A stretch of DNA of 64,000 bases from Caldimonas manganoxidans ATCC BAA-369 (GTDB lineage Bacteria; Pseudomonadota; Gammaproteobacteria; Burkholderiales; Burkholderiaceae_C), in assembly GCF_000381125.1 (NCBI RefSeq), contig NZ_KB905944.1:1-64000 (forward strand), written 5' to 3'. This document shows, one piece after another, positions 1-9,190 of this stretch (positions are counted from its first letter, which is position 1; each line of letters opens with the position of its first letter). The notes below the pieces were generated by a model. That model was not told the DNA's origin. It did not search any database and saw only the letters and a program-made list of their open reading frames with translations. The translations under genes and the position numbers were made by a program.

Positions 1-84
1 GGTGTCGAGCCTGACGTCATCGACGACCCACGGCGGCTGCAAGCCCAGCGCGCTGGTGAACAGAGCTTCTACGGCAATGCCCAT
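1..84 (-). CDS. ISL3-family transposase, N-terminal fragment
   Basis: Only the first 28 codons are inside the window. They start at the ATG of bases 84-82, preceded by a good ribosome binding site (AGGAGGATGAG). The peptide begins MGIAVEALFTSALGLQPPW, the usual opening of ISL3-type transposases, in which a short helical start with a G-L-x-x-P-W stretch precedes the zinc-binding region. The DDE catalytic domain is off the window. The gene points away from the element end at 219, which is the normal arrangement. It is too short for independent family confirmation. Confidence 0.65.
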   Translation of the reverse strand, partial: MGIAVEALFTSALGLQPPWVVDDVRLDT

Positions 85-191
85 GGACTCATCCTCCTGA
101 TCAAACACGCCCCGTGGACATGTGCACAGGCCGGCCAGCGGCCTGCACACATGCCCACCGGGCTCGACGACCAGGAGTCATTGTGACTGTT

Positions 192-219
192 GGGTTCCAC
201 ACGAAATGACGAAGAGCCC
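192..219. repeat. Terminal inverted repeat of the ISL3-like element
   Basis: The last bases of the insertion sequence run from about 192 to 219. Read from outside in, they start GGGCTCTTCGTCATTTCGTG. The partner repeat is beyond the left edge, so the exact repeat length cannot be measured here. The outer limit is set by the point where the TIR reading frame loses its expected sequence. Confidence 0.55.
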
Positions 220-270
220 TATTTCCTTGTTCTTGCTGCTATGGCTGATGAATACGTCAAAGTTGGGCAT
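220..270 (-). pseudogene. TIR-domain protein gene, truncated by an insertion sequence
   Basis: The frame starts at ATG 270-268 with a GAGG ribosome binding site and encodes [17 protein letters not shown]. This is the beta-A strand and the SHSSKNKE loop that open bacterial TIR domains, which in defence proteins commonly cleave NAD+ or make cyclic ADP-ribose-type signals. After codon 17 the ISL3-like element begins. The frame reads about 13 more codons into it and stops at a TGA (180-178), so no folded TIR domain is made. It starts 10 bases after the stop of the nuclease-like gene and probably shared its transcript. The remainder of the gene, with any sensor domain, should lie left of the element, outside the window. 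The TIR call rests on 17 residues but the motif is characteristic. Confidence 0.7.
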
Positions 271-280
271 GGCGCAGACC

Positions 281-943
281 TCAGCAGTTCGGGATTTTAA
301 TACAAATGGCGGCGCACCAGACATGAAAATCACCAACGCTGCCTTGAGATAGCAGCAACTGGCCGAGCGTTGCTGATCTTGGAACGGTATCGACGCAAGC
401 ATCCGAAACGGTCAACTGCGAGGCCGAATTACCCTTTTCGATCTCCTTCTTCAAAAGAGCAAGCCCTTTATCGCGCTCTTGTTGAGCTGACTTTGTAGGA
501 GGGAATGTTTGGCTGGTCCAGGCAACAAGCTGCCACGATGTCGCCCTTCGTTGATTGCCATCCTGAGCAACTTCGTCAGGAAAACGCTGAAGTTTGCGCA
601 AGTCCTCCTGCAAGTTGAAGCCGAGAGCATTTTTCCGAATGGTCTTGAGCTCAAAGGCCAAGGCTTGCTTGCCATAGACGAGCACCGCATCAAGCTTTTT
701 GTGGGCGCCGCGCCCAGAGGTTTGCTTTTTCAAAGGGAACTCGAGGAAAGCTCCAAACCCGCGCTTGTGCGCTACGGCCAACACATAGGGTCTGATAGCC
801 GACTCGAAGGCTGCCTCGCTGCGCCCCAGGAAGTGATCAGCGAGCATGCCCGCGACCACGCCATCACAAATCGCCTTCGCAGCCAGTGGTTCAGGCTTGA
901 TTCCGAAGCGGTGGTGAACGGAAGGCAAGCGTTTCATTGTCAT
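281..943 (-). CDS. PD-(D/E)XK nuclease-like protein, probable defence gene
   Basis: A protein of about 220 residues with no family name I recognise. From the ATG at 943 it carries a helix with Glu47, then Asp85 in [11 protein letters not shown] and, after a hydrophobic strand, Glu98-x-Lys100 in [10 protein letters not shown]. This D-(n)-ExK layout is the active site of PD-(D/E)XK (restriction-endonuclease-fold) nucleases. The 943 start is chosen because GGGGAAG lies just upstream; the frame stays open to 991. It overlaps no real gene and is followed after 10 bases by the TIR gene, which suggests an operon of nuclease-like protein plus TIR effector. It could also be an enzymatically dead sensor using the same fold. 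The frame is intact although its partner is broken. Confidence 0.6.
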
Positions 944-944
944 G

Positions 945-1172
945 TCATGCTTCCCCTTGCCCTGATGCCGAGCACTGTTGTTTATTGGCAAAAGCGGCTC
1001 TGATCATCGCCACAACGCCAATACCAACCGCAAGCCATAGCGTGAGACTCCGGCTGACGAGCGATGCGGTGATGGCATCCGCCTGACCAACGCCTGCAGC
1101 CGACAGAAGCAATACGATAGGGAAGGTGTTCAAAACGCCCGCGGCGATGGCCACTGAGGCGAGATATTCCAC
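945..1172 (-). pseudogene. C-terminal remnant of a membrane protein (lysylphosphatidylglycerol-synthase/flippase type)
   Basis: About 75 residues containing two hydrophobic segments. The stretch ITASLVSRSLTLWLAVGIGV resembles the last transmembrane helices of the lysylphosphatidylglycerol synthase / UPF0104 flippase family, where an A-S-L-x-x-R-x-L-T-L-W-L pattern is common. No upstream part of such a protein is present: the similarity ends near 1190, where an abrupt junction is likely. A GTG at 1172-1170 could start a 75-residue two-helix protein, but it has no clear ribosome binding site. The stop codon lies 1 base before the start of the nuclease-like gene. I favour a decayed gene end. A small intact membrane partner of the nuclease/TIR pair is the alternative. 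Confidence 0.4.
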
Positions 1173-1239: not shown

Positions 1240-3144
1240 TCAATCAAGAGCTTCGCCTTGATTCGCACCCGCTGAAGCTCGGTTACGAAGAGTGGCGCAG
1301 CGGTACATTTGCAGGACCCCAGCCCCTGGCCGCTGCACGGTGACATGCGCATCGAGCCCCCGCGCTGGACTGGATAAAACGACAAGGTCCAAGTCTGGGT
1401 CGAGGCACAGGGATCTCAGCGCCCGACCGTCCCATCGGGCAGGGTAATAGTACGGCGCATGCAGATCATCAGTTTGGAATGCCTGATCCCATGGAGTGGG
1501 CGGCTGCAGCCCCCGGATACGATGCAAGCGAGTTTGAAGAAGCACCGCATGATCGCGCGAGAACACGATTCCAATGGCCTGCACGTTTTGGGCGTATCCC
1601 GCCGTTGCCAGTTCGAGCCATGGCCCCAGATCACTATCAGGCCAGTACACCACGTCGCCACGTTGATAACTCCCACGTAACGAAGCATTCTGGCCGGCCG
1701 GATCGTAGCGTGATTCGACCAAACGCAATGCACTGGGACGCTGGTCCCACAAGACCCCAGAGATCAGGACCAGAGCGACGACCCCCCAGATCTTGATCCA
1801 CCCGTTGAGGCGGCTGACGCCCCACACCATCAGCAATGGAACGACCAACGTCGTCAGCATTGTCGGGACTTCAATAGATCTCGTAATTCCCGGAAGGATC
1901 CAATGCTGATAGGTGTCGTGTGAAAAGACGGCGAAGAAAGTGACAAGCAGCAGCCACACGGCTCCCGCAGTTACAACCACCTTTCGTGAGGGCAAAGACA
2001 GGTCTCCCCAGACCTTAGCTGGAATCTCGCCGATCTTGGGGCAGACGTGCAGGGCCCACGTGATCAGCAGTAGCACACCACCCCAGGCCTGGCCTGCCAG
2101 CAGATATGAACCCAACAACACGGCGGGCCACAGCCATGGATATGCGCTCCTTCGCGATTGTCGACACACATCTACCGCGGCGATGATGCCCACTGCCACT
2201 GCGAGCCATAGCGCCCGCCAAGGCTGCGCCTGAACGGGCCAAGCAGCCGGAAAGTGAAAAGAGAGCACCACACTTGCAAACAGGCCCCATGCAGCAAGGC
2301 AACCCACCAGCAAATACAGCCTTCGATAAGTTTCTGTGCCCAGACGTCCGGCAATCAACAAGATGGCAAGCCACCATAGGTTCTGATCCAAAGCCAAGGC
2401 TTCGACACTGGGAGCGAGCACGATGGCAGATGTGGATTGCACGAGTTGGAACCATGCTGCATCCATCGGTTGCAAGGGTTCCAGGCCAAGCGCAGCTGCG
2501 CCGATGACGACGACCAACCCCACCAGCAGCGCAGCCGCGATGGATCGATCGGGCATAGCCAAACCCAATACGGCCAAGACGCCCCAACTCGCCATCAGCG
2601 GGTGAAGGGCAATGCCTGCTGAAAGGGCGGCCACCGCTATCAAACGGCCGCCTTGGACATATGCCGCCATGCCCGCGAGCGTCAGTCCCATCGCATAGGG
2701 CCTAGCTGTTGCGAACGACTCTGTCAGAACGAAGATCTTCGAGGCGATGAAGGTATAGGGTGGCGCCAGAACACACAACAACACGGCCGCCCACAGCCCC
2801 CATCTTGGGCCGATCGTGACTCGCGCCAACCACACCGCCCCGACCGCCCAAACCATACCTCCAACCAGAGCCACCGCCTTGGCCGCGACATCCACGGGAC
2901 TCACGGCCAGCAGCCCGGCATAAAGCTCGTCGAACAGGCTGGAGCGGTCCTGAGCCCCGAACATGAACCAGACGTCACGCGCAAACGCCTCGGGCGCGAG
3001 ATGGCGGTAAGCCATCACCAGGTAGACACGCGCGTCGTGCCATATCCCCTGGTAGGGGTTTGCCCACAACCAGGTCACCCAAACCACCAGAAGTGCTGCC
3101 AGTGCCTCGGTGGTTTGGGGTGCAGGTGCTTTTGACAAGCGCAT
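1240..3144 (-). CDS. Large polytopic membrane protein of a pilin or surface-glycan locus
   Basis: A protein of 634 residues from ATG 3144, or 657 from a GTG at 3213 that would overlap the previous gene by 62 bases; I chose the ATG because it follows the upstream stop after 7 bases. Roughly ten to twelve hydrophobic segments fill residues 15-480, followed by a soluble C-terminal domain of about 150 residues. The first loop holds WHDARVY, an acidic motif in the position where GT-C membrane glycosyltransferases carry their catalytic Asp. I do not recognise a named family. It is the last gene of the run pilA, gtrA-like, FAD oxidoreductase, so a glycan-transfer role on pilin or envelope is an inference from position. 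Confidence 0.6.
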   Translation of the reverse strand: MRLSKAPAPQTTEALAALLVVWVTWLWANPYQGIWHDARVYLVMAYRHLAPEAFARDVWFMFGAQDRSSLFDELYAGLLAVSPVDVAAKAVALVGGMVWAVGAVWLARVTIGPRWGLWAAVLLCVLAPPYTFIASKIFVLTESFATARPYAMGLTLAGMAAYVQGGRLIAVAALSAGIALHPLMASWGVLAVLGLAMPDRSIAAALLVGLVVVIGAAALGLEPLQPMDAAWFQLVQSTSAIVLAPSVEALALDQNLWWLAILLIAGRLGTETYRRLYLLVGCLAAWGLFASVVLSFHFPAAWPVQAQPWRALWLAVAVGIIAAVDVCRQSRRSAYPWLWPAVLLGSYLLAGQAWGGVLLLITWALHVCPKIGEIPAKVWGDLSLPSRKVVVTAGAVWLLLVTFFAVFSHDTYQHWILPGITRSIEVPTMLTTLVVPLLMVWGVSRLNGWIKIWGVVALVLISGVLWDQRPSALRLVESRYDPAGQNASLRGSYQRGDVVYWPDSDLGPWLELATAGYAQNVQAIGIVFSRDHAVLLQTRLHRIRGLQPPTPWDQAFQTDDLHAPYYYPARWDGRALRSLCLDPDLDLVVLSSPARGLDAHVTVQRPGAGVLQMYRCATLRNRASAGANQGEALD

Positions 3145-3151
3145 CAATCGA

Positions 3152-4777
3152 TCAGCCGCGCCCACCCACCACAGCCGGTTCACGTTCGCCAGCGTCCGAG
3201 GACGGGGATTCACGATCCACTTTCATTTCGTGGTATTCGTCGTCGATGTTGACTGCCCAGATCTCGGCACGATTGACATGGCCATGCATGATCGCTTCCG
3301 CAGCCAGCTTGCCCGTCAGCATCGAGTGGTCCTGATTGTTGTAGCGATGCATGCCGTTACGCCCAACCAGATACAGGTTGCCAAACGTGTCCAACCATTG
3401 ACGGACCACACCGAATTGATCGTAGGTGCCAAAGTACGCTGGGTAGGCTTTTTCCACGTGGACGACGTTCCAATCCATAACATCGCTTGGGTCGATGAGG
3501 TCGATGGAGGCCAACTCCCGAATCGCAAACTGAGCAAACTCCTCTTTGGGCATGCTCCACAGCGCATCGCCTTCGTTGCAAAAGTATTCCAGGCCAAGCC
3601 ACACTGTGTTCTGGTCTTGAACAAGCGCAGGGCTCCAGTTGTTGAAGATCTGAAGGCGACCTAGCTTGACCTCCTTTTCCTGCACGTAGATCCAGTTGTC
3701 CGGTAACACGTGGGTGTTCGCCCCTGGCACGGCATAGCGGCTCGGCTTGAGTTTGCGGACCAACACACCCACCGTGATGAAATCACGGTATAGCAAGCCG
3801 TCGGCGATCCTGAGCACCTCCGGTGGAGGCGCAGGCGACATGCCTCGCACCAAGTCACGTACCGGCATCGTCGAGATCACTTCATCAGCTGCGATGAACT
3901 CCCGCTGCGTGCCCTCGCGAAGGACCTCCACGCCAACGACACGTCCGTTGGCATGGCGCACGCCAACCACCTTCACGCCGAATTCGATGCGCCCACCCAG
4001 CGCTCGAATCTTGTCCGCAGCGGCTTCCCACATCTGGCCTGGGCCCAAGGGCGGGTACAGAAACTGTTCGATTAGGCTGGTGTGTTTCACGGGGCTGGCG
4101 CGCTTGGGCAGCAGCGTCCCTATCGCGTGCTTCAAGGCTTCTGCAATCGACAAGCTCTTGATCCGCTGCGCCCCCCATTCGGCACTGATTTGCGAACAAG
4201 GCACGCCCCACACCTTTTCCGTGTAGTCCTTGAAGAAGGTGCGATAGAGCTCCCCTCCGAAGCGATTGATGATGAAGTCCTCTAAGCTCTTTTCCGGCCG
4301 GCGCCGTGTCTGCGCCCAGGCATAGCTGAAAAGAATGCGCACCAATCTCCACGCCCCCAGGTTGGCAATGGTGGTCCAGTTCAGCTTGAGCGGATAGTCG
4401 AAGAAGCGCCGAAGGAAGTAGATTCTCGACAACCGCGGACGCACCAACAGGCAGGCCGCGTCGTCTCTGGCGCCTGCAGACGTCACAGCTAGCTTTTTCC
4501 CGTGGTACTGCACCTCGACGGGCTCGCCCTTCGGTGCACGCACGGGCAGCAGGGCCTGCCACCATTGCATCACCCAATCGGATTTCGAGAAGAACCTATG
4601 TCCACCGAGATCCATGCGGTTGCCACGGTATTCGATCGTCTTCGAAATTCCGCCCACCTGGGTATCGGCCTCCAAAATGATCGGCTTGATGTGGGATCGT
4701 GTAATCAACTCGTGAGCCGCGGTCAGACCCGCAGGACCAGCGCCAATGATCACAACGTTTTTGGGCGAGACTGTCAT
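3152..4777 (-). CDS. NAD(P)/FAD-dependent oxidoreductase, UDP-galactopyranose-mutase-like
   Basis: A flavoprotein of 541 residues. It opens with [16 protein letters not shown] (residues 8-23), the GxGxxG dinucleotide-binding fold, followed by [14 protein letters not shown], the Glu that binds the FAD ribose, and [10 protein letters not shown] at about 57-66. This opening is typical of the amine-oxidase/UDP-galactopyranose mutase-like proteins encoded in polysaccharide and glycosylation clusters. The substrate cannot be read from sequence; an isomerase or oxidoreductase acting on a lipid- or nucleotide-linked sugar is plausible. It lies 15 bases downstream of the GtrA-like gene and 7 bases upstream of the large membrane protein, so all three are probably co-transcribed. 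Confidence 0.8.
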
Positions 4778-4792
4778 GGGGATTCGAGAGGT

Positions 4793-5167
4793 TCAAGCAC
4801 GTTTGAAGACGAAGGTGGATCGGAAGTAGAAGTTGAGGACGATGACCACGGCTGCCGCCAGCAACTTGGCGACCAGCACTGGCCACCCCAGGTCCCCGAC
4901 CAGTGTCTCCACCAGAACCACTGTACCGATCAACCCCCCAAGGCCACTGAGCGCAAACCACCCGAACTGCGCTGACAACTTCATCTTGCGGGCCGCCGGG
5001 AACACCACCCGGCGACAAAGCGCAAAGTTCAGTACGAGCCCTGCTGTGAAGCCCACAGCCGCGGCGACGCCGGGCGGTAGCCCCCACCAGATCACCATGG
5101 CCATCAGCAGCCCGGCATCCGCCAAGAACGCTATGCCGCTGGCGGCCGAGTAGGCGACAAACTGCAT
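4793..5167 (-). CDS. GtrA-like membrane protein
   Basis: A 124-residue protein with four hydrophobic helices, the usual size and layout of GtrA family proteins. It shows the typical opening QFVAYSAASGIAFLADAG and ending VLNFYFRSTFVFKR, an F-x-x-R-x-x-V-F pattern at the C terminus. GtrA proteins are thought to flip undecaprenyl-phosphate-linked sugars across the inner membrane for glycosylation of surface polymers. It begins 45 bases after a strong terminator that follows pilA, so its expression may depend on read-through from pilA or on a promoter not seen here. Together with the next two genes it suggests a glycan-transfer function. Confidence 0.85.
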   Translation of the reverse strand: MQFVAYSAASGIAFLADAGLLMAMVIWWGLPPGVAAAVGFTAGLVLNFALCRRVVFPAARKMKLSAQFGWFALSGLGGLIGTVVLVETLVGDLGWPVLVAKLLAAAVVIVLNFYFRSTFVFKRA

Positions 5168-5211
5168 GACTAAAGACTGGGGTCAGCCAGAGGCACAGGG
5201 GTTAGGGGTAG

Positions 5212-5235
5212 AAAAAACCCCGCCAAGGCGGGGTT
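5212..5235 (-). terminator. Rho-independent terminator after pilA
   Basis: A perfect 9-bp stem (AACCCCGCC / GGCGGGGTT) with a 2-base loop at 5216-5235. On the minus strand it is followed by a run of six T (5217-5212). It lies 30 bases after the pilA stop and ends 45 bases before the GtrA-like start, so it should cut down transcription from the pilin promoter into the glycosylation genes. Confidence 0.85.
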
Positions 5236-5264
5236 CGATTTGTTGATTGCAGAACCTGCTAGCT

Positions 5265-5711
5265 TTAAGTGTTGCGGCACTCTTGGGGCACGAAGCGATG
5301 ATTGGTCGCGGGAGCAGTGCAACGCCACGTCACCGCTGCTGCCGTGGCACCGGCTGTCGGGGTCAACGTGATCGTGAAACCGCCAGCGCGAGTCGTCGTG
5401 GTGACCGTCAGCACGCCGTTGTTGCACGCGGTCGACTGAACGTTCTGCGTGGCCGTCGAGATGGCGGTAAAGCCGTTGCACACCGTATCGGTATCGATTG
5501 TTCCACCGTTGGCAGCAATGTTTTCCGCAATGGTCGCCTTGGCACCGGCGAGTTGTGCCAGTGCCTCGGACACACGAGCGCGAACGGTGTAGTCCTGATA
5601 AGCCGGCAGAGCAATCGCCGCCAAAATACCGATGATCGCCACGACGATCATCAGTTCGATCAGCGTGAAGCCCTTCTGGGCCGAACGCTTCATCATGTGC
5701 AGTTGCTTCAT
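5265..5711 (-). CDS. pilA: Type IV major pilin
   Basis: A prepilin of 148 residues. It has a short leader ending in QKG followed by [20 protein letters not shown], the prepilin peptidase site (G before F) with the invariant Glu5 and the hydrophobic N-terminal helix of type IVa pilins. The C-terminal region has a cysteine pair closing a D-region loop (C in TWRCTAP and in PQECRNT). ATG 5711 is preceded by GGAGAG; a second Met at codon 6 would give a shorter leader. It is the first gene of a unit with a sigma-54-like promoter upstream and a terminator downstream. The Thr/Ala-rich C-terminal half offers possible O-glycosylation sites, consistent with the adjacent glycan genes. Confidence 0.9.
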
Positions 5712-5751
5712 ACTGTCTCTCCAAAGAGGTGGGGGTTGTGCGCCTCCCTCT

Positions 5752-5768
5752 ATGCAGGGCCCATGCCA
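5752..5768 (-). promoter_or_regulatory. Sigma-54-type promoter of pilA
   Basis: On the minus strand the sequence TGGCATGGGCCCTGCAT has GG and GC separated by exactly 10 bases, matching the -24/-12 consensus TGGCAC-N5-TTGCA. Transcription would begin near 5743, about 32 bases before the pilA start. Pilin genes in Pseudomonas and many betaproteobacteria are driven by sigma-54 with PilR; no PilR gene is in this window. Confidence 0.6.
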
Positions 5769-5926
5769 GCCGGGTGGGCCAGCGTGGGCGTGACGGAATC
5801 GGCATTCGGGGCGTCAGGGCGCCCTTTTGGGGGACTGGGAGTGTCACCTCGTGTGTCCGCGCTGACAAAAATGGTCAGCGCTTTGCCTTCGTTTCGCTGA
5901 TGCGCAAGTGCGTGACGGGATTGCGC

Positions 5927-5963
5927 TTGGCCCATGATTGCATGAAGGGTACAATGCAATCAT
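5927..5963 (+). promoter_or_regulatory. Promoter and operator of the FitAB-like module
   Basis: A -35 TTGGCC (5927-5932) and a -10 TACAAT (5950-5955) are separated by 17 bases. They are overlaid by a perfect 10-bp inverted repeat, ATGATTGCAT (5934-5943) and ATGCAATCAT (5954-5963), with a 10-base spacer. The repeat covers the spacer and the -10 box, the arrangement expected for autorepression by the ribbon-helix-helix antitoxin encoded 28 bases downstream. Confidence 0.7.
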
Positions 5964-5990
5964 CTCAGGCATCTCGGGGGATTTGCCATC

Positions 5991-6245
5991 ATGCCTTCCG
6001 TCACTGTTCGCAACGTTCCTGAGGCGGTGCACCGTGCCTTGCGCGTTCGTGCGGCCCAGCATGGCCGCAGTGCCGAGGCAGAGATTCGGGACATCCTGGA
6101 ACAAGCCGTCAAACCGGCCCAGCGCGTGCGCCTGGGCGACGAGTTGGCCGCCCTGGGCCGCAAGGTGGGCCTGACCCCCCAGGACTTCGAGGCCCTTGAG
6201 CAGGTTCGCGACACCACGCCGGCCGAGCCGCTGAGGTTTGAATGA
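5991..6245 (+). CDS. FitA-like antitoxin (ribbon-helix-helix)
   Basis: An 84-residue protein that starts with a ribbon-helix-helix DNA-binding domain (MPSVTVRNVPEAVHRALRVR, then SAEAEIRDILEQAV at about 28-41), the pattern of FitA/VapB antitoxins. The C-terminal tail would wrap the toxin. It overlaps the toxin start by 4 bases (ATGA), giving translational coupling. The palindrome over its promoter is the likely binding site of the toxin-antitoxin complex. The whole length fits the family. Confidence 0.85.
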   Translation: MPSVTVRNVPEAVHRALRVRAAQHGRSAEAEIRDILEQAVKPAQRVRLGDELAALGRKVGLTPQDFEALEQVRDTTPAEPLRFE

Positions 6246-6664
6246 TCCTGCTGGACACCAACGTCGTGTCTGAAGCGATGAAGCCGCAGCCGGATCCCTC
6301 CGTGCAGGCGTGGCTGAACGAGCAAGCCGCTGAAACGCTGTATCTGTCCAGCGTGACGCTGGCCGAGCTGTTGTCTGGCGTCCAGGCGCTGCCGGCCGAC
6401 AGGCGAAGGAACATGCTGGGCCTGGCGCTGGACGGACTGCTGGCGCTGTTCCAGGACCGCCTGTTGCCGTTCGATGCCGAAGCCGCGCGGCGCTACGCGG
6501 AACTGGCCGTTGCCGCGCGAGGCCGCGGGCGGGGCTTCCCCACACCGGACGGCTACATCGCCGCCATCGCAGCCGCTCATGGTTTCATGGTCGCCAGTCG
6601 GGATGTCGGCCCTTTTGCCGCGGCCGGGCTGAAGGTCATCGACCCCTGGAAGGGGAGGCCATGA
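6242..6664 (+). CDS. FitB-like PIN-domain toxin (VapC family RNase)
   Basis: A PIN-domain ribonuclease of 140 residues. Visible acidic sites are Asp5 in LLDTNVVSEA, Glu in TLAELLSGV (about residue 43) and the Asp in TPDGYIAAIAA (about 102), followed by VASRDVGPF (Asp about 120): the four-acid metal site of PIN nucleases. FitB/VapC toxins cut specific RNAs, often tRNA, when freed from antitoxin. The gene is the second of a two-gene operon with the FitA-like antitoxin and appears intact. A weak hairpin at 6677-6700 follows and could act as its terminator. Confidence 0.88.
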   Translation: MILLDTNVVSEAMKPQPDPSVQAWLNEQAAETLYLSSVTLAELLSGVQALPADRRRNMLGLALDGLLALFQDRLLPFDAEAARRYAELAVAARGRGRGFPTPDGYIAAIAAAHGFMVASRDVGPFAAAGLKVIDPWKGRP

Positions 6665-6676
6665 GTGGTCAGAGCA

Positions 6677-6700
6677 AGAGGGCTTTGTAGAGCCCTTCAC
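6677..6700. repeat. 24-bp direct repeat shared with the HigA-like gene (copy 1)
   Basis: These 24 bases, starting AGAGGGCTTTGTAGAGCCCT and ending TCAC, recur exactly at 7512-7535 inside the HigA-like antitoxin gene, where on the minus strand they encode part of EGLYKALS. Here they lie between two other toxin-antitoxin modules. The repeat contains a 6-bp inverted repeat (AGGGCT/AGCCCT). It may be the scar of an earlier HigA-like gene, or a hairpin kept as a terminator. Confidence 0.6.
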
Positions 6701-6701
6701 A

Positions 6702-6735
6702 GTTGCGGTACGCAACACCTTACCTTAAAGTAAGG
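6702..6735 (+). promoter_or_regulatory. Promoter and operators of the AbrB-PIN module
   Basis: A -35 TTGCGG (6703-6708) and -10 TAAAGT (6726-6731) are 17 bases apart. Two perfect inverted repeats lie on them: GTTGCG-GTA-CGCAAC (6702-6716) over the -35 and CCTTAC-N6-GTAAGG (6718-6735) over the -10. These are probable binding sites of the downstream AbrB-type antitoxin complex. Confidence 0.55.
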
Positions 6736-6753
6736 ATTTCTGGGAGATCGACC

Positions 6754-6996
6754 ATGACCACTGCCACCATCACGTCCAAGGGCCAGATCACGATTCCAGC
6801 CGACGTGCGTCATGCGCTTGCCGTGGATGCCGGTGACCGCGTGGAGTTCGTCCAGATCGAGCCTGGTCAGTTCCTTTTCCTGGCGGCGAATCGGTCTGTG
6901 ACGGAACTGAAGGGCATGTTTGGCAAGCCTGCCAGAGTCGTGTCCATCGACGAGATGAACCTGGCCATTGCTTCTCGCGGAGCTTCGGCACGATGA
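6754..6996 (+). CDS. AbrB/SpoVT-type antitoxin (VapB)
   Basis: An 80-residue protein with the swapped-hairpin AbrB fold signature SKGQITIPADVRHAL (about residues 8-22), followed by VDAGDRVEFVQIEPGQFLF. Start ATG 6754 is chosen because GGGAG lies just upstream and the DNA-binding motif begins within ten residues; the frame is open further back to 6703 but that part covers the promoter. It overlaps the downstream PIN toxin by 4 bases (ATGA). It should neutralise that toxin and repress the operon. Confidence 0.85.
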   Translation: MTTATITSKGQITIPADVRHALAVDAGDRVEFVQIEPGQFLFLAANRSVTELKGMFGKPARVVSIDEMNLAIASRGASAR

Positions 6997-7388
6997 TCGG
7001 GCTGGATACCAATGTGCTGGTCCGCTACATCATGCAGGACGATGTGAAGCAGGCCGCCAAAGCGACGAAGCTCATGGAAAGCCTGTCGGCGCAGGCCCCC
7101 GGCTTCATCACGCTCGTGTCGGTTGTCGAGCTCGTTTGGGTTCTGTCGTCGAGCTATGGTCTGGACCGCAAGCAGGTGGCGCAAGCGCTGGAGATCATCC
7201 TTCGATCCAGGCAACTCATCGTTGACCACGCAGAGCATGTGGTGCGTGCGCTTCGCGCCTTCACTGCGGGGAACGCTGACTTTGCGGACTGCCTGATCGA
7301 GCGGATAGCAGCGTCGGCTGGCTGCGCACAGACGATGACTTTCGACGCAGCGGCCGCGAAAGCCGCGGGCATGACGCTGATTCAGTAA
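6993..7388 (+). CDS. PIN-domain toxin (VapC family)
   Basis: A 131-residue PIN ribonuclease. The acidic site residues are visible as Asp5 in GLDTNVLVRYI, Glu in VSVVELVWVL (about 49), Asp in NADFADCLIERIA (about 97-100) and Asp in TMTFDAAAAKAAG near the end. It is translated from an ATGA overlap with the AbrB-type antitoxin, the common order for VapBC. It differs in sequence from the FitB-like toxin 330 bases upstream, so the two modules are not tandem duplicates. Confidence 0.87.
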   Translation: MIGLDTNVLVRYIMQDDVKQAAKATKLMESLSAQAPGFITLVSVVELVWVLSSSYGLDRKQVAQALEIILRSRQLIVDHAEHVVRALRAFTAGNADFADCLIERIAASAGCAQTMTFDAAAAKAAGMTLIQ

Positions 7389-7428
7389 CCGCCCATTGAG
7401 GCGATGAGCGGGCTCTCCGCGGCACCGG

Positions 7429-7725
7429 TCAAGCCGGCGTCACATGCAGCCGCAAACCCAAGGCGCCGAGAACTTTCAGCACCGTCGCAAAACTGGGGTT
7501 GCCATCTGGCGAGAGGGCTTTGTAGAGCCCTTCACGGCTCAGTCCGGCTTCGCGGGCTGTCTGCGCCATACCACGGGCTCGAGCCACGTCCCCCAAAGCC
7601 TTGGCGATGAATGCCGGATCGTCGCCCGCTTCTTCCAGCACGGCTTCCAGATAGAGCGCGCAGTCTTCGGGCGTCCGAAGATGATCCTGCACATCCCAGG
7701 GGGTCGTCTTGATCGTCATGGTCAC
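7429..7725 (-). CDS. HigA-like antitoxin (COG3636 addiction module antidote)
   Basis: A 98-residue protein. The N-terminal half (PWDVQDHLRTPEDCALYLEA) and the helix-turn-helix (AREAGLSREGLYKALS, about residues 58-73) are typical of the COG3636 antidote family, which pairs with RelE/HigB-like toxins. It overlaps the end of the upstream toxin gene by 4 bases (ATGA), with toxin first and antitoxin second, the HigBA order. It converges on the PIN toxin at 7388. Bases 7512-7535 inside this gene are repeated exactly at 6677-6700. Confidence 0.85.
   Translation of the reverse strand: MTMTIKTTPWDVQDHLRTPEDCALYLEAVLEEAGDDPAFIAKALGDVARARGMAQTAREAGLSREGLYKALSPDGNPSFATVLKVLGALGLRLHVTPA
7512..7535. repeat. 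24-bp direct repeat (copy 2, inside the HigA-like gene)
   Basis: This is an exact copy of the 24 bases at 6677-6700. It is coding sequence of the antitoxin helix-turn-helix here, so this copy is presumably the source. Confidence 0.6.
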
Positions 7726-8012
7726 AACTCCTTCACCATGTCCAAAGCCTCGCGGATATCACTGTCCTGCGTGGTGTTGTCGCCGCCCACCAGCAACAAC
7801 ACCACGCACCCAGCGCGCCACGTGTAGTAAACCCGGTAGCCTGGTCCGTGGTCGATCTTCATTTCCACCACACCCGCCGTCAGCACGCGGTGCTGGCCCG
7901 GATTGCCCTCTTGCAAGCGACGCAAGCGCACGAGGATGCGCGCTTGGGCTTGTCTGTCTCGCAGGGACTCAAACCATCGGCTGTATCGGGCGGTCTGCCG
8001 AATTTCGACCGT
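7722..8012 (-). CDS. RelE/HigB-like toxin without a standard start codon
   Basis: The conserved toxin reading frame runs from codon ACG at 8012-8010 to the stop at 7722, 96 residues, beginning (T)VEIRQTARYSRWFESLRD and continuing through ILVRLRRLQEGNPG and DHGPGYRVYYTW, the full RelE/ParE-superfamily killer fold. An in-frame TGA lies two codons before ACG. No ATG, GTG or TTG occurs until a GTG at 7931, which would remove the first 27 residues. The likely promoter would place the transcription start on the A of ACG. The toxin may therefore be leaderless with a non-standard start, weakly expressed, or dead by an ATG-to-ACG change. It overlaps the HigA-like gene by 4 bases. Confidence 0.7.
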   Translation of the reverse strand, partial: TVEIRQTARYSRWFESLRDRQAQARILVRLRRLQEGNPGQHRVLTAGVVEMKIDHGPGYRVYYTWRAGCVVLLLVGGDNTTQDSDIREALDMVKEL

Positions 8013-8047
8013 GCGTCAACTATAGTTAACATCCGGAGGGATGTAAA
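8013..8047 (-). promoter_or_regulatory. Promoter and operator of the HigBA-like module
   Basis: On the minus strand there is TTTACA (8047-8042), 17 bases, then TATAGT (8024-8019): a near-consensus sigma-70 promoter. A nearly perfect 16-bp palindrome, GTCAACTATAGTTAAC (8015-8030), covers the -10 and is the likely operator for the antitoxin. The seventh base after the -10 is the A of the ACG codon that opens the toxin frame. Confidence 0.7.
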
Positions 8048-8080
8048 CCATGGACCACACCCTGGCAAAGACCCTCCGGA

Positions 8081-9190
8081 TCACACTAGCGCCGGGTAGT
8101 CGATGTAGCCCTGCGCCCCACCCCCGTAGAAGGTCTTCACGTCCCAGGCATTGAGGGGGGCGCCTTCGCGCAAGCGGCGCACGAGGTCGGGGTTGCTGAT
8201 GAACAGGCGGCCGAAGGCCACGGCGTCGGCCCGGCCTTGGGCCACCGCGGCTTCGGCCAGGGTTTTGTCGTAGCCGTTGTTGACGATCCAGGCGCCACGG
8301 CCGCCGGCGTTGCGGTAGGCGCGGCGCAGGGCGTCGAAGTCGAAGGGCCGGTCGGGCAGTTCGCGCGGGCCGCCGGTGGCGCCTTCGATGAGGTGCAGGA
8401 AGGCCAGGCCCAGGGGGGCGAGCGCGCGCACCACGTGCTCGAACAGGGGCTGGGGGTCGGCATCGACGATGTCGTTGGCCGGGGTGATCGGCGACAGGCG
8501 GATGCCGGTGCGCCCAGGGCCGATGGCCTCGGCCACCGCGCGCGTCACTTCGAGCAGCAGTCGGGCCCGGTTCTCGATGGTGCCGCCGTAGGCATCGGTG
8601 CGCTGGTTGGCGCCGGTCTTGAGGAATTGGTCGAGCAAGTAGCCGTTGGCCGCGTGGATTTCCACGCCGTCGAAGCCGGCTTCCTCCACGGCCGCGCGAG
8701 CGGCACGGGCATAGTCGGCCACGAGCGCGGGCAGTTCGTCGATGCGCAAGGCCCGCGGGGCGGACACCGGCTGGAAGCTGCCCTGACCGTCGGGGCCAAT
8801 GAGGTAGGTGCGGGTCTGGGCCTGCAGGGCCGAGGGGGCCACCGGCGCCTGGCCGTCGGGCAGCAGCGAGGTGTGCGAGACGCGGCCCACGTGCCACAGC
8901 TGGACCACGATGCGGCCACCGGCGGCATGCACGGCCTCGGTGACGCGGCGCCAGCCGGCCAGCTGCTCGGCGGTGTACAGCCCCGGCACCTGGGCATAGC
9001 CTTGGGCCATGGGGCTGATGGCCGTGCCTTCGGAGACGATCAAGCCCGCGCTGGCACGCTGGGTGTAGTAGGTGACATGCAAGTCGTGCGGCACGCCGCG
9101 CGGGGCGCGGTTGCGGGTCAGCGGCGCCATCACGACACGGTTGGCGAGGAACAGGTCGCCGGCCTGGAGAGGATCGTACAGAGTGTTCAT
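8081..9190 (-). CDS. nemA: Old-yellow-enzyme alkene reductase (NADH:flavin oxidoreductase)
   Basis: An FMN enzyme of 369 residues that reduces activated C=C bonds and nitro compounds with NAD(P)H. Family marks are LFLANRVVMAPLTRNRAP near the start, EIHAANGYLLDQFLK (about 178-192) carrying the His/Asn pair that binds the substrate anion, and YGGTIENRARLLLEV. The C-terminal DAVAFGRLFISNPDLVRR is the phosphate-binding segment. The length is standard for NemA-type proteins. Start ATG 9190 is chosen from family alignment; the open frame runs on upstream to 10123 only because of the high GC. No operon partner is evident. Confidence 0.9.
   Translation of the reverse strand: MNTLYDPLQAGDLFLANRVVMAPLTRNRAPRGVPHDLHVTYYTQRASAGLIVSEGTAISPMAQGYAQVPGLYTAEQLAGWRRVTEAVHAAGGRIVVQLWHVGRVSHTSLLPDGQAPVAPSALQAQTRTYLIGPDGQGSFQPVSAPRALRIDELPALVADYARAARAAVEEAGFDGVEIHAANGYLLDQFLKTGANQRTDAYGGTIENRARLLLEVTRAVAEAIGPGRTGIRLSPITPANDIVDADPQPLFEHVVRALAPLGLAFLHLIEGATGGPRELPDRPFDFDALRRAYRNAGGRGAWIVNNGYDKTLAEAAVAQGRADAVAFGRLFISNPDLVRRLREGAPLNAWDVKTFYGGGAQGYIDYPALV

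Follow-up and report, generated by a model that had tools for sequence, protein, structure and literature searches.

Does the first kilobase of this stretch of the Caldimonas manganoxidans ATCC BAA-369 genome hold the remains of a defence system in which a nuclease-like protein was paired with a TIR-domain protein? A preliminary description had proposed such a pair, broken by an insertion sequence, and had suspected an undescribed antiphage system. TIR-type genes frequently serve bacteria in defence against viruses. The window, i.e., the whole stretch of 64,000 nucleotides analyzed here, comprises bases 1-64000 of contig C16 (76,000 bases), and its base 1 coincides with the end of this contig; the genome is available as 3.53 Mb in 89 contigs.

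Organization of the locus and its insertion element

The features recognized at this end of the contig are the following.

1..218, minus strand: end portion of an ISL3-like insertion sequence (repeated in 12 other contigs; element ends compared)
84 down to 1, minus strand: first 28 codons of an ISL3-like transposase (by comparison with locus L062, where the transposase start was read)
219..226, no strand assigned: candidate 8-bp target duplication CTATTTCC (comparison of element flanks)
220..270, minus strand: first 17 codons of a putative TIR-domain gene (PADLOC ThsB and PDC-S66 matches)
281..943, minus strand: 220-residue orphan protein with a PD-(D/E)XK-like motif D85, E98, K100 (reading frame and motif; no family match)
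945..1172, minus strand: frame of 75 residues that starts with GTG and contains two hydrophobic stretches, possible third operon member (reading frame)

On the minus strand, the 75-residue frame (945-1172) is followed by the 220-residue frame (281-943), which starts 1 base after its end, and by the TIR start (270-220). The stop of the 220-residue gene ends at 281 and the TIR ATG lies at 270, confirming the gap of 10 bases described before, and a GAGG ribosome-site motif (282-279) overlaps this stop, 8 bases before the ATG. The short gap and the motif over the stop argue for co-translation of the 220-residue gene with the TIR gene. The 75-residue frame has no match in Pfam or PADLOC; counting it, the operon may comprise three genes. 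Likewise, the reported interruption of the TIR gene after codon 17 holds, as the element ends at 218 and base 219, the last host base, opens codon 18.

An insertion sequence is indeed present at the locus, namely an ISL3-like element repeated in 12 other contigs. Searched as DNA against the same genome, bases 1-943 gave 14 rows, i.e., the window and 13 others in these 12 contigs, all 13 being confined to query bases 1-219. The ISL3-type transposase family PF01610 has 10 matches in the genome, nine of which are C-terminal transposase ends near contig ends that adjoin the other end of the element; the tenth, on C5, is a different gene. The 8 bases outside each end were compared for 11 left-end and 14 right-end strings, with some nested or look-alike sites left in the comparison, and gave six exact pairs (C50-C2, C38-C32, C8-C3, C10-C31, C33-C56 and C54-C43) besides one further pair with one mismatch, which competes with an exact pair. 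According to the six exact pairs, the element makes 8-bp duplications. It thus shares with the ISL3 family the PF01610 transposase and the 8-bp duplications seen at other copies, whereas the window copy differs in that its flank CTATTTCC has no partner among the 11 left-end flanks in the assembly. Either the other junction is unassembled or recombination between copies would have removed it. We favour the latter, since the only TIR_2 match in the genome is a complete gene on another contig, C21; still, seven of the 13 other right-end strings, including nested or look-alike sites, are likewise without partner, so that the missing duplication may reflect an assembly gap. Elsewhere in the genome, near position 69000 of contig C19 (L065, G000:C19:60000-69258), one element copy is apparently inserted in another.

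The TIR start and the 220-residue protein

A stretch of 20 residues around the TIR start matches two PADLOC models of ThsB (E 0.0021 and 0.015, over 15 and 14 residues, respectively) as well as PDC-S66 (E 0.0039). With these matches, the TIR-domain opening claimed previously stands and is unlikely to be a product of chance, and the locus very likely contains a broken TIR gene. The same 20 residues gave no match in Pfam, NCBIfam or the PDB. A full TIR domain with catalytic glutamate is absent here, the gene being cut in codon 18, and a TIR_2 scan of this genome, with E values up to 10 admitted, did not find the remainder beyond the element in the assembly, its single match being the C21 gene. 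Thus, the locus shares with Thoeris ThsB and other bacterial TIR proteins the start stretch that matches the ThsB and PDC-S66 models, but differs from Thoeris in that only 17 TIR codons remain and in that PADLOC gave no ThsA match in the 220-residue protein or the ten right-side neighbours.

The complete TIR gene lies in a possible defence cluster on the minus strand of C21 (L066, G000:C21:1-9000, positions 3175-8739), which features a PDC-M61B match (E 8.4e-163), an HmaC ATPase (1577 bits) and the 316-residue TIR protein, whose gene overlaps that of HmaC by 4 bases. A plasmid of Rhodoferax antarcticus carries a TIR protein 51% identical to this one; in a 16.9 kb stretch of the plasmid, tblastn found no HmaC or PDC-M61B relative.

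The PD-(D/E)XK site ascribed to the 220-residue protein was substantiated only in part, as D85, E98 and K100 are present in hydrophobic context, with no profile match to any PD-(D/E)XK family. The D85/E98-x-K100 spacing presumably fits the PD-(D/E)XK phosphodiesterase superfamily, with which the protein shares the hydrophobic-D...hydrophobic-E-x-K motif and from which it differs by the lack of a profile match and of fold evidence. In composition shuffles, D85-(x12)-E98-x-K100 in hydrophobic context arose in 20 of 20,000 cases, using a stricter pattern written after the sequence was seen, and the loose D...ExK motif in 11,746 of 20,000. Structure prediction from the single sequence was too poor to use (mean pLDDT 39.8, pTM 0.28). 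The nuclease identity of the protein is a guess at the level of the motif. Its frame features no internal stop and the best codon score of the six frames (0.215; others 0.168 to -0.247), the opposite frame scoring 0.168 with 3 stops. This score is below those of all ten neighbouring genes (0.264-0.454), which are themselves the training set, and the GC content of the gene is 0.540 vs 0.575-0.676 in the ten neighbouring genes measured. The low GC content and codon score fit a foreign origin, but also make a weaker case for coding.

The search for relatives of the 220-residue protein gave no family match in Pfam, NCBIfam, PHROGs or PADLOC, no tblastn match among plasmids and phages, and only the own copy in 60 related genomes. 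Four designed repeat proteins in the PDB (E 0.004-0.005 over 43-44 residues) were judged chance. Of the 399 family genomes, 18 besides the own one gave a total of 19 matches at E 0.009-0.099; upon realignment, the 19 loci proved short, biased or stop-bearing among the six rows listed and were likewise attributed to chance. The same applied to one other match each in 398 phylum genomes (E 0.0098) and in nine genus genomes (E 0.0076, aligning 71 residues within a frame of 407 aa); when these were realigned, L078 gave no alignment and L060 only E 0.19 and 7.5. Pattern scans matched 192 stretches in genome contigs and six in viral contigs, none of them confirmed as relatives. A degenerate motif pattern found 4 viral and 62 genome loci, 51 of these 66 with an open frame across the motif; the best phmmer value was E 0.0016 (82-residue frame), the next 0.014, and none was judged a relative, while two TIR-motif rows among these loci look spurious. 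The best reading of the gene is that of an orphan for a putative PD-(D/E)XK protein.

Genomic surroundings and recurrence of the pair

The preliminary description had placed the locus in a defence island, which the neighbourhood does not bear out: none of the ten proteins on its right side (1240-7931) was recognized as a defence gene by PADLOC or Pfam. PADLOC gave no defence match at E <= 0.001 for them, aside from a fragment match of 44 residues between the FAD domain of an FAD oxidoreductase and a desaturase model, which was not taken as a defence gene. Pfam recognized the FAD oxidoreductase, GtrA, type IV pilin, FitA-PIN, MazE-like-PIN and HI1420-type antidote, and nothing in two of the ten (657-aa and 69-aa frames). 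The three toxin-antitoxin modules described nearby were recovered, the 69-aa partner of the third pair being without Pfam match. From these annotations, the surroundings are read not as a defence island but as a putative locus for pilin and surface sugars that also carries toxin-antitoxin pairs. Within it, the type IV pilin is followed by FitA-PIN, MazE-like-PIN and the HI1420-type antidote with the 69-aa frame (5265-7931). In addition, several plasmids contain, with weak E-values and mostly at spots where no gene is listed, a counterpart of the short stretch at 1190-1221, located between the small membrane frame and the 657-aa gene; another mobile element may have left this stretch behind as a scar.

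Recurrence of the pair was approached from the TIR side in the 399 family genomes, 120 of which feature TIR_2 at E <= 1e-8. Among about 150 matches listed, 144 loci of this one family were read (the own C21 gene, 29 given by the search and 114 fetched), with six left out, mostly near contig ends. All 144 loci read among the matches listed contain a TIR frame, and 92 of them, the own included (91 of the 143 non-own), feature a total of 135 upstream frames of at least 80 aa between -60 and +150 bases relative to the start of the TIR domain. No frame resembling the 220-residue protein was found upstream of TIR in the 143 non-own loci among the matches listed (of which 91 have an upstream frame within this distance), and the best phmmer value of the upstream frames against it was E 0.51, again among the matches listed. 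A loose motif test picked out five upstream frames; the four from other genomes (L185, L209, L217 and L218) showed no resemblance when read by eye, and the remaining one (L011) is the terminal part of HmaC in the own genome. A literature search, weak because the motif name is not searchable as written, brought up no paper on the searched combination in the part of the literature it reached.

Possible origins and meaning of the locus

The locus may be what is left of a broken accessory operon for a small membrane protein (the 75-residue frame), a putative PD-(D/E)XK protein and a TIR protein, a tentative reading whose chance we put somewhat below even. It is supported by the 10-base gap, the ribosome-site motif placed over the stop, the match of the TIR start to ThsB models, the 20 in 20,000 shuffles that reproduce the motif, and the 220-residue frame, which is free of internal stops and has the best codon score of the six. 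Further support comes from the element, six other copies of which have exact 8-bp duplications that the window copy lacks, and from the sole TIR_2 match lying elsewhere. Against it stand the lack of a relative of the 220-residue protein, the poor fold model, the low codon score, recognized neighbours that are not defence genes, and the absence of a similar partner from the 143 other TIR loci (among the matches listed). This last result, together with the lack of relatives in the 60, 399, 398 and nine sampled genomes (weak, chance-like matches aside) and the element and possible scar flanking the locus, speaks for two unrelated accessory genes, an orphan and a solitary TIR gene, which arrived separately beside the pilin and surface-sugar locus, were then broken and never formed a two-part system. 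Such separate arrival is a serious though doubtful possibility, and the spacing and ribosome-site motif that argue for co-translation weigh against it.

The 220-residue protein, moreover, need not be a nuclease. With the D...ExK residues present by chance, it might be a sensor, an antitoxin-like partner or an immunity protein of the TIR protein, which we consider rather unlikely; the missing profile match to any PD-(D/E)XK family, the lack of a usable structure model and the ease with which shuffling produces the loose motif point this way, whereas the motif with its hydrophobic strand context is rare in shuffles, albeit by a pattern devised once the sequence was known. It appears quite improbable that the locus is a disarmed copy, left with the sensor after the element cut off the effector, of a very rare defence operon of three genes (for a small membrane protein, an orphan PD-(D/E)XK sensor and a TIR effector) that is unrelated in sequence to the system models scanned.

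Judged by spacing and motif alone, the locus could be a real defence unit of two or three genes, with a chance not far short of even; its best reading is that of a decayed accessory operon, probably of abortive-infection type, whose TIR part the element cut off. In such an operon, the PD-(D/E)XK-like protein would sense or cut foreign DNA and thereby release the TIR protein, the effector, which would act on NAD or make a nucleotide signal, so that infection could lead to NAD loss and cell arrest. TIR expression would have ceased with the insertion of the element, and the 3' part of the gene was probably lost afterwards by deletion between element copies; the system would be dead here and its first gene a leftover. 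A role in virus defence cannot be shown from sequence alone, and the undescribed antiphage system suspected before is not established by a single broken copy whose first gene is without relatives found. As such a copy, the locus is chiefly a lead. Should the decayed operon be real, the known TIR-based defences would gain a nuclease-like partner, and the locus would exemplify the loss of a costly effector while its partner stays.
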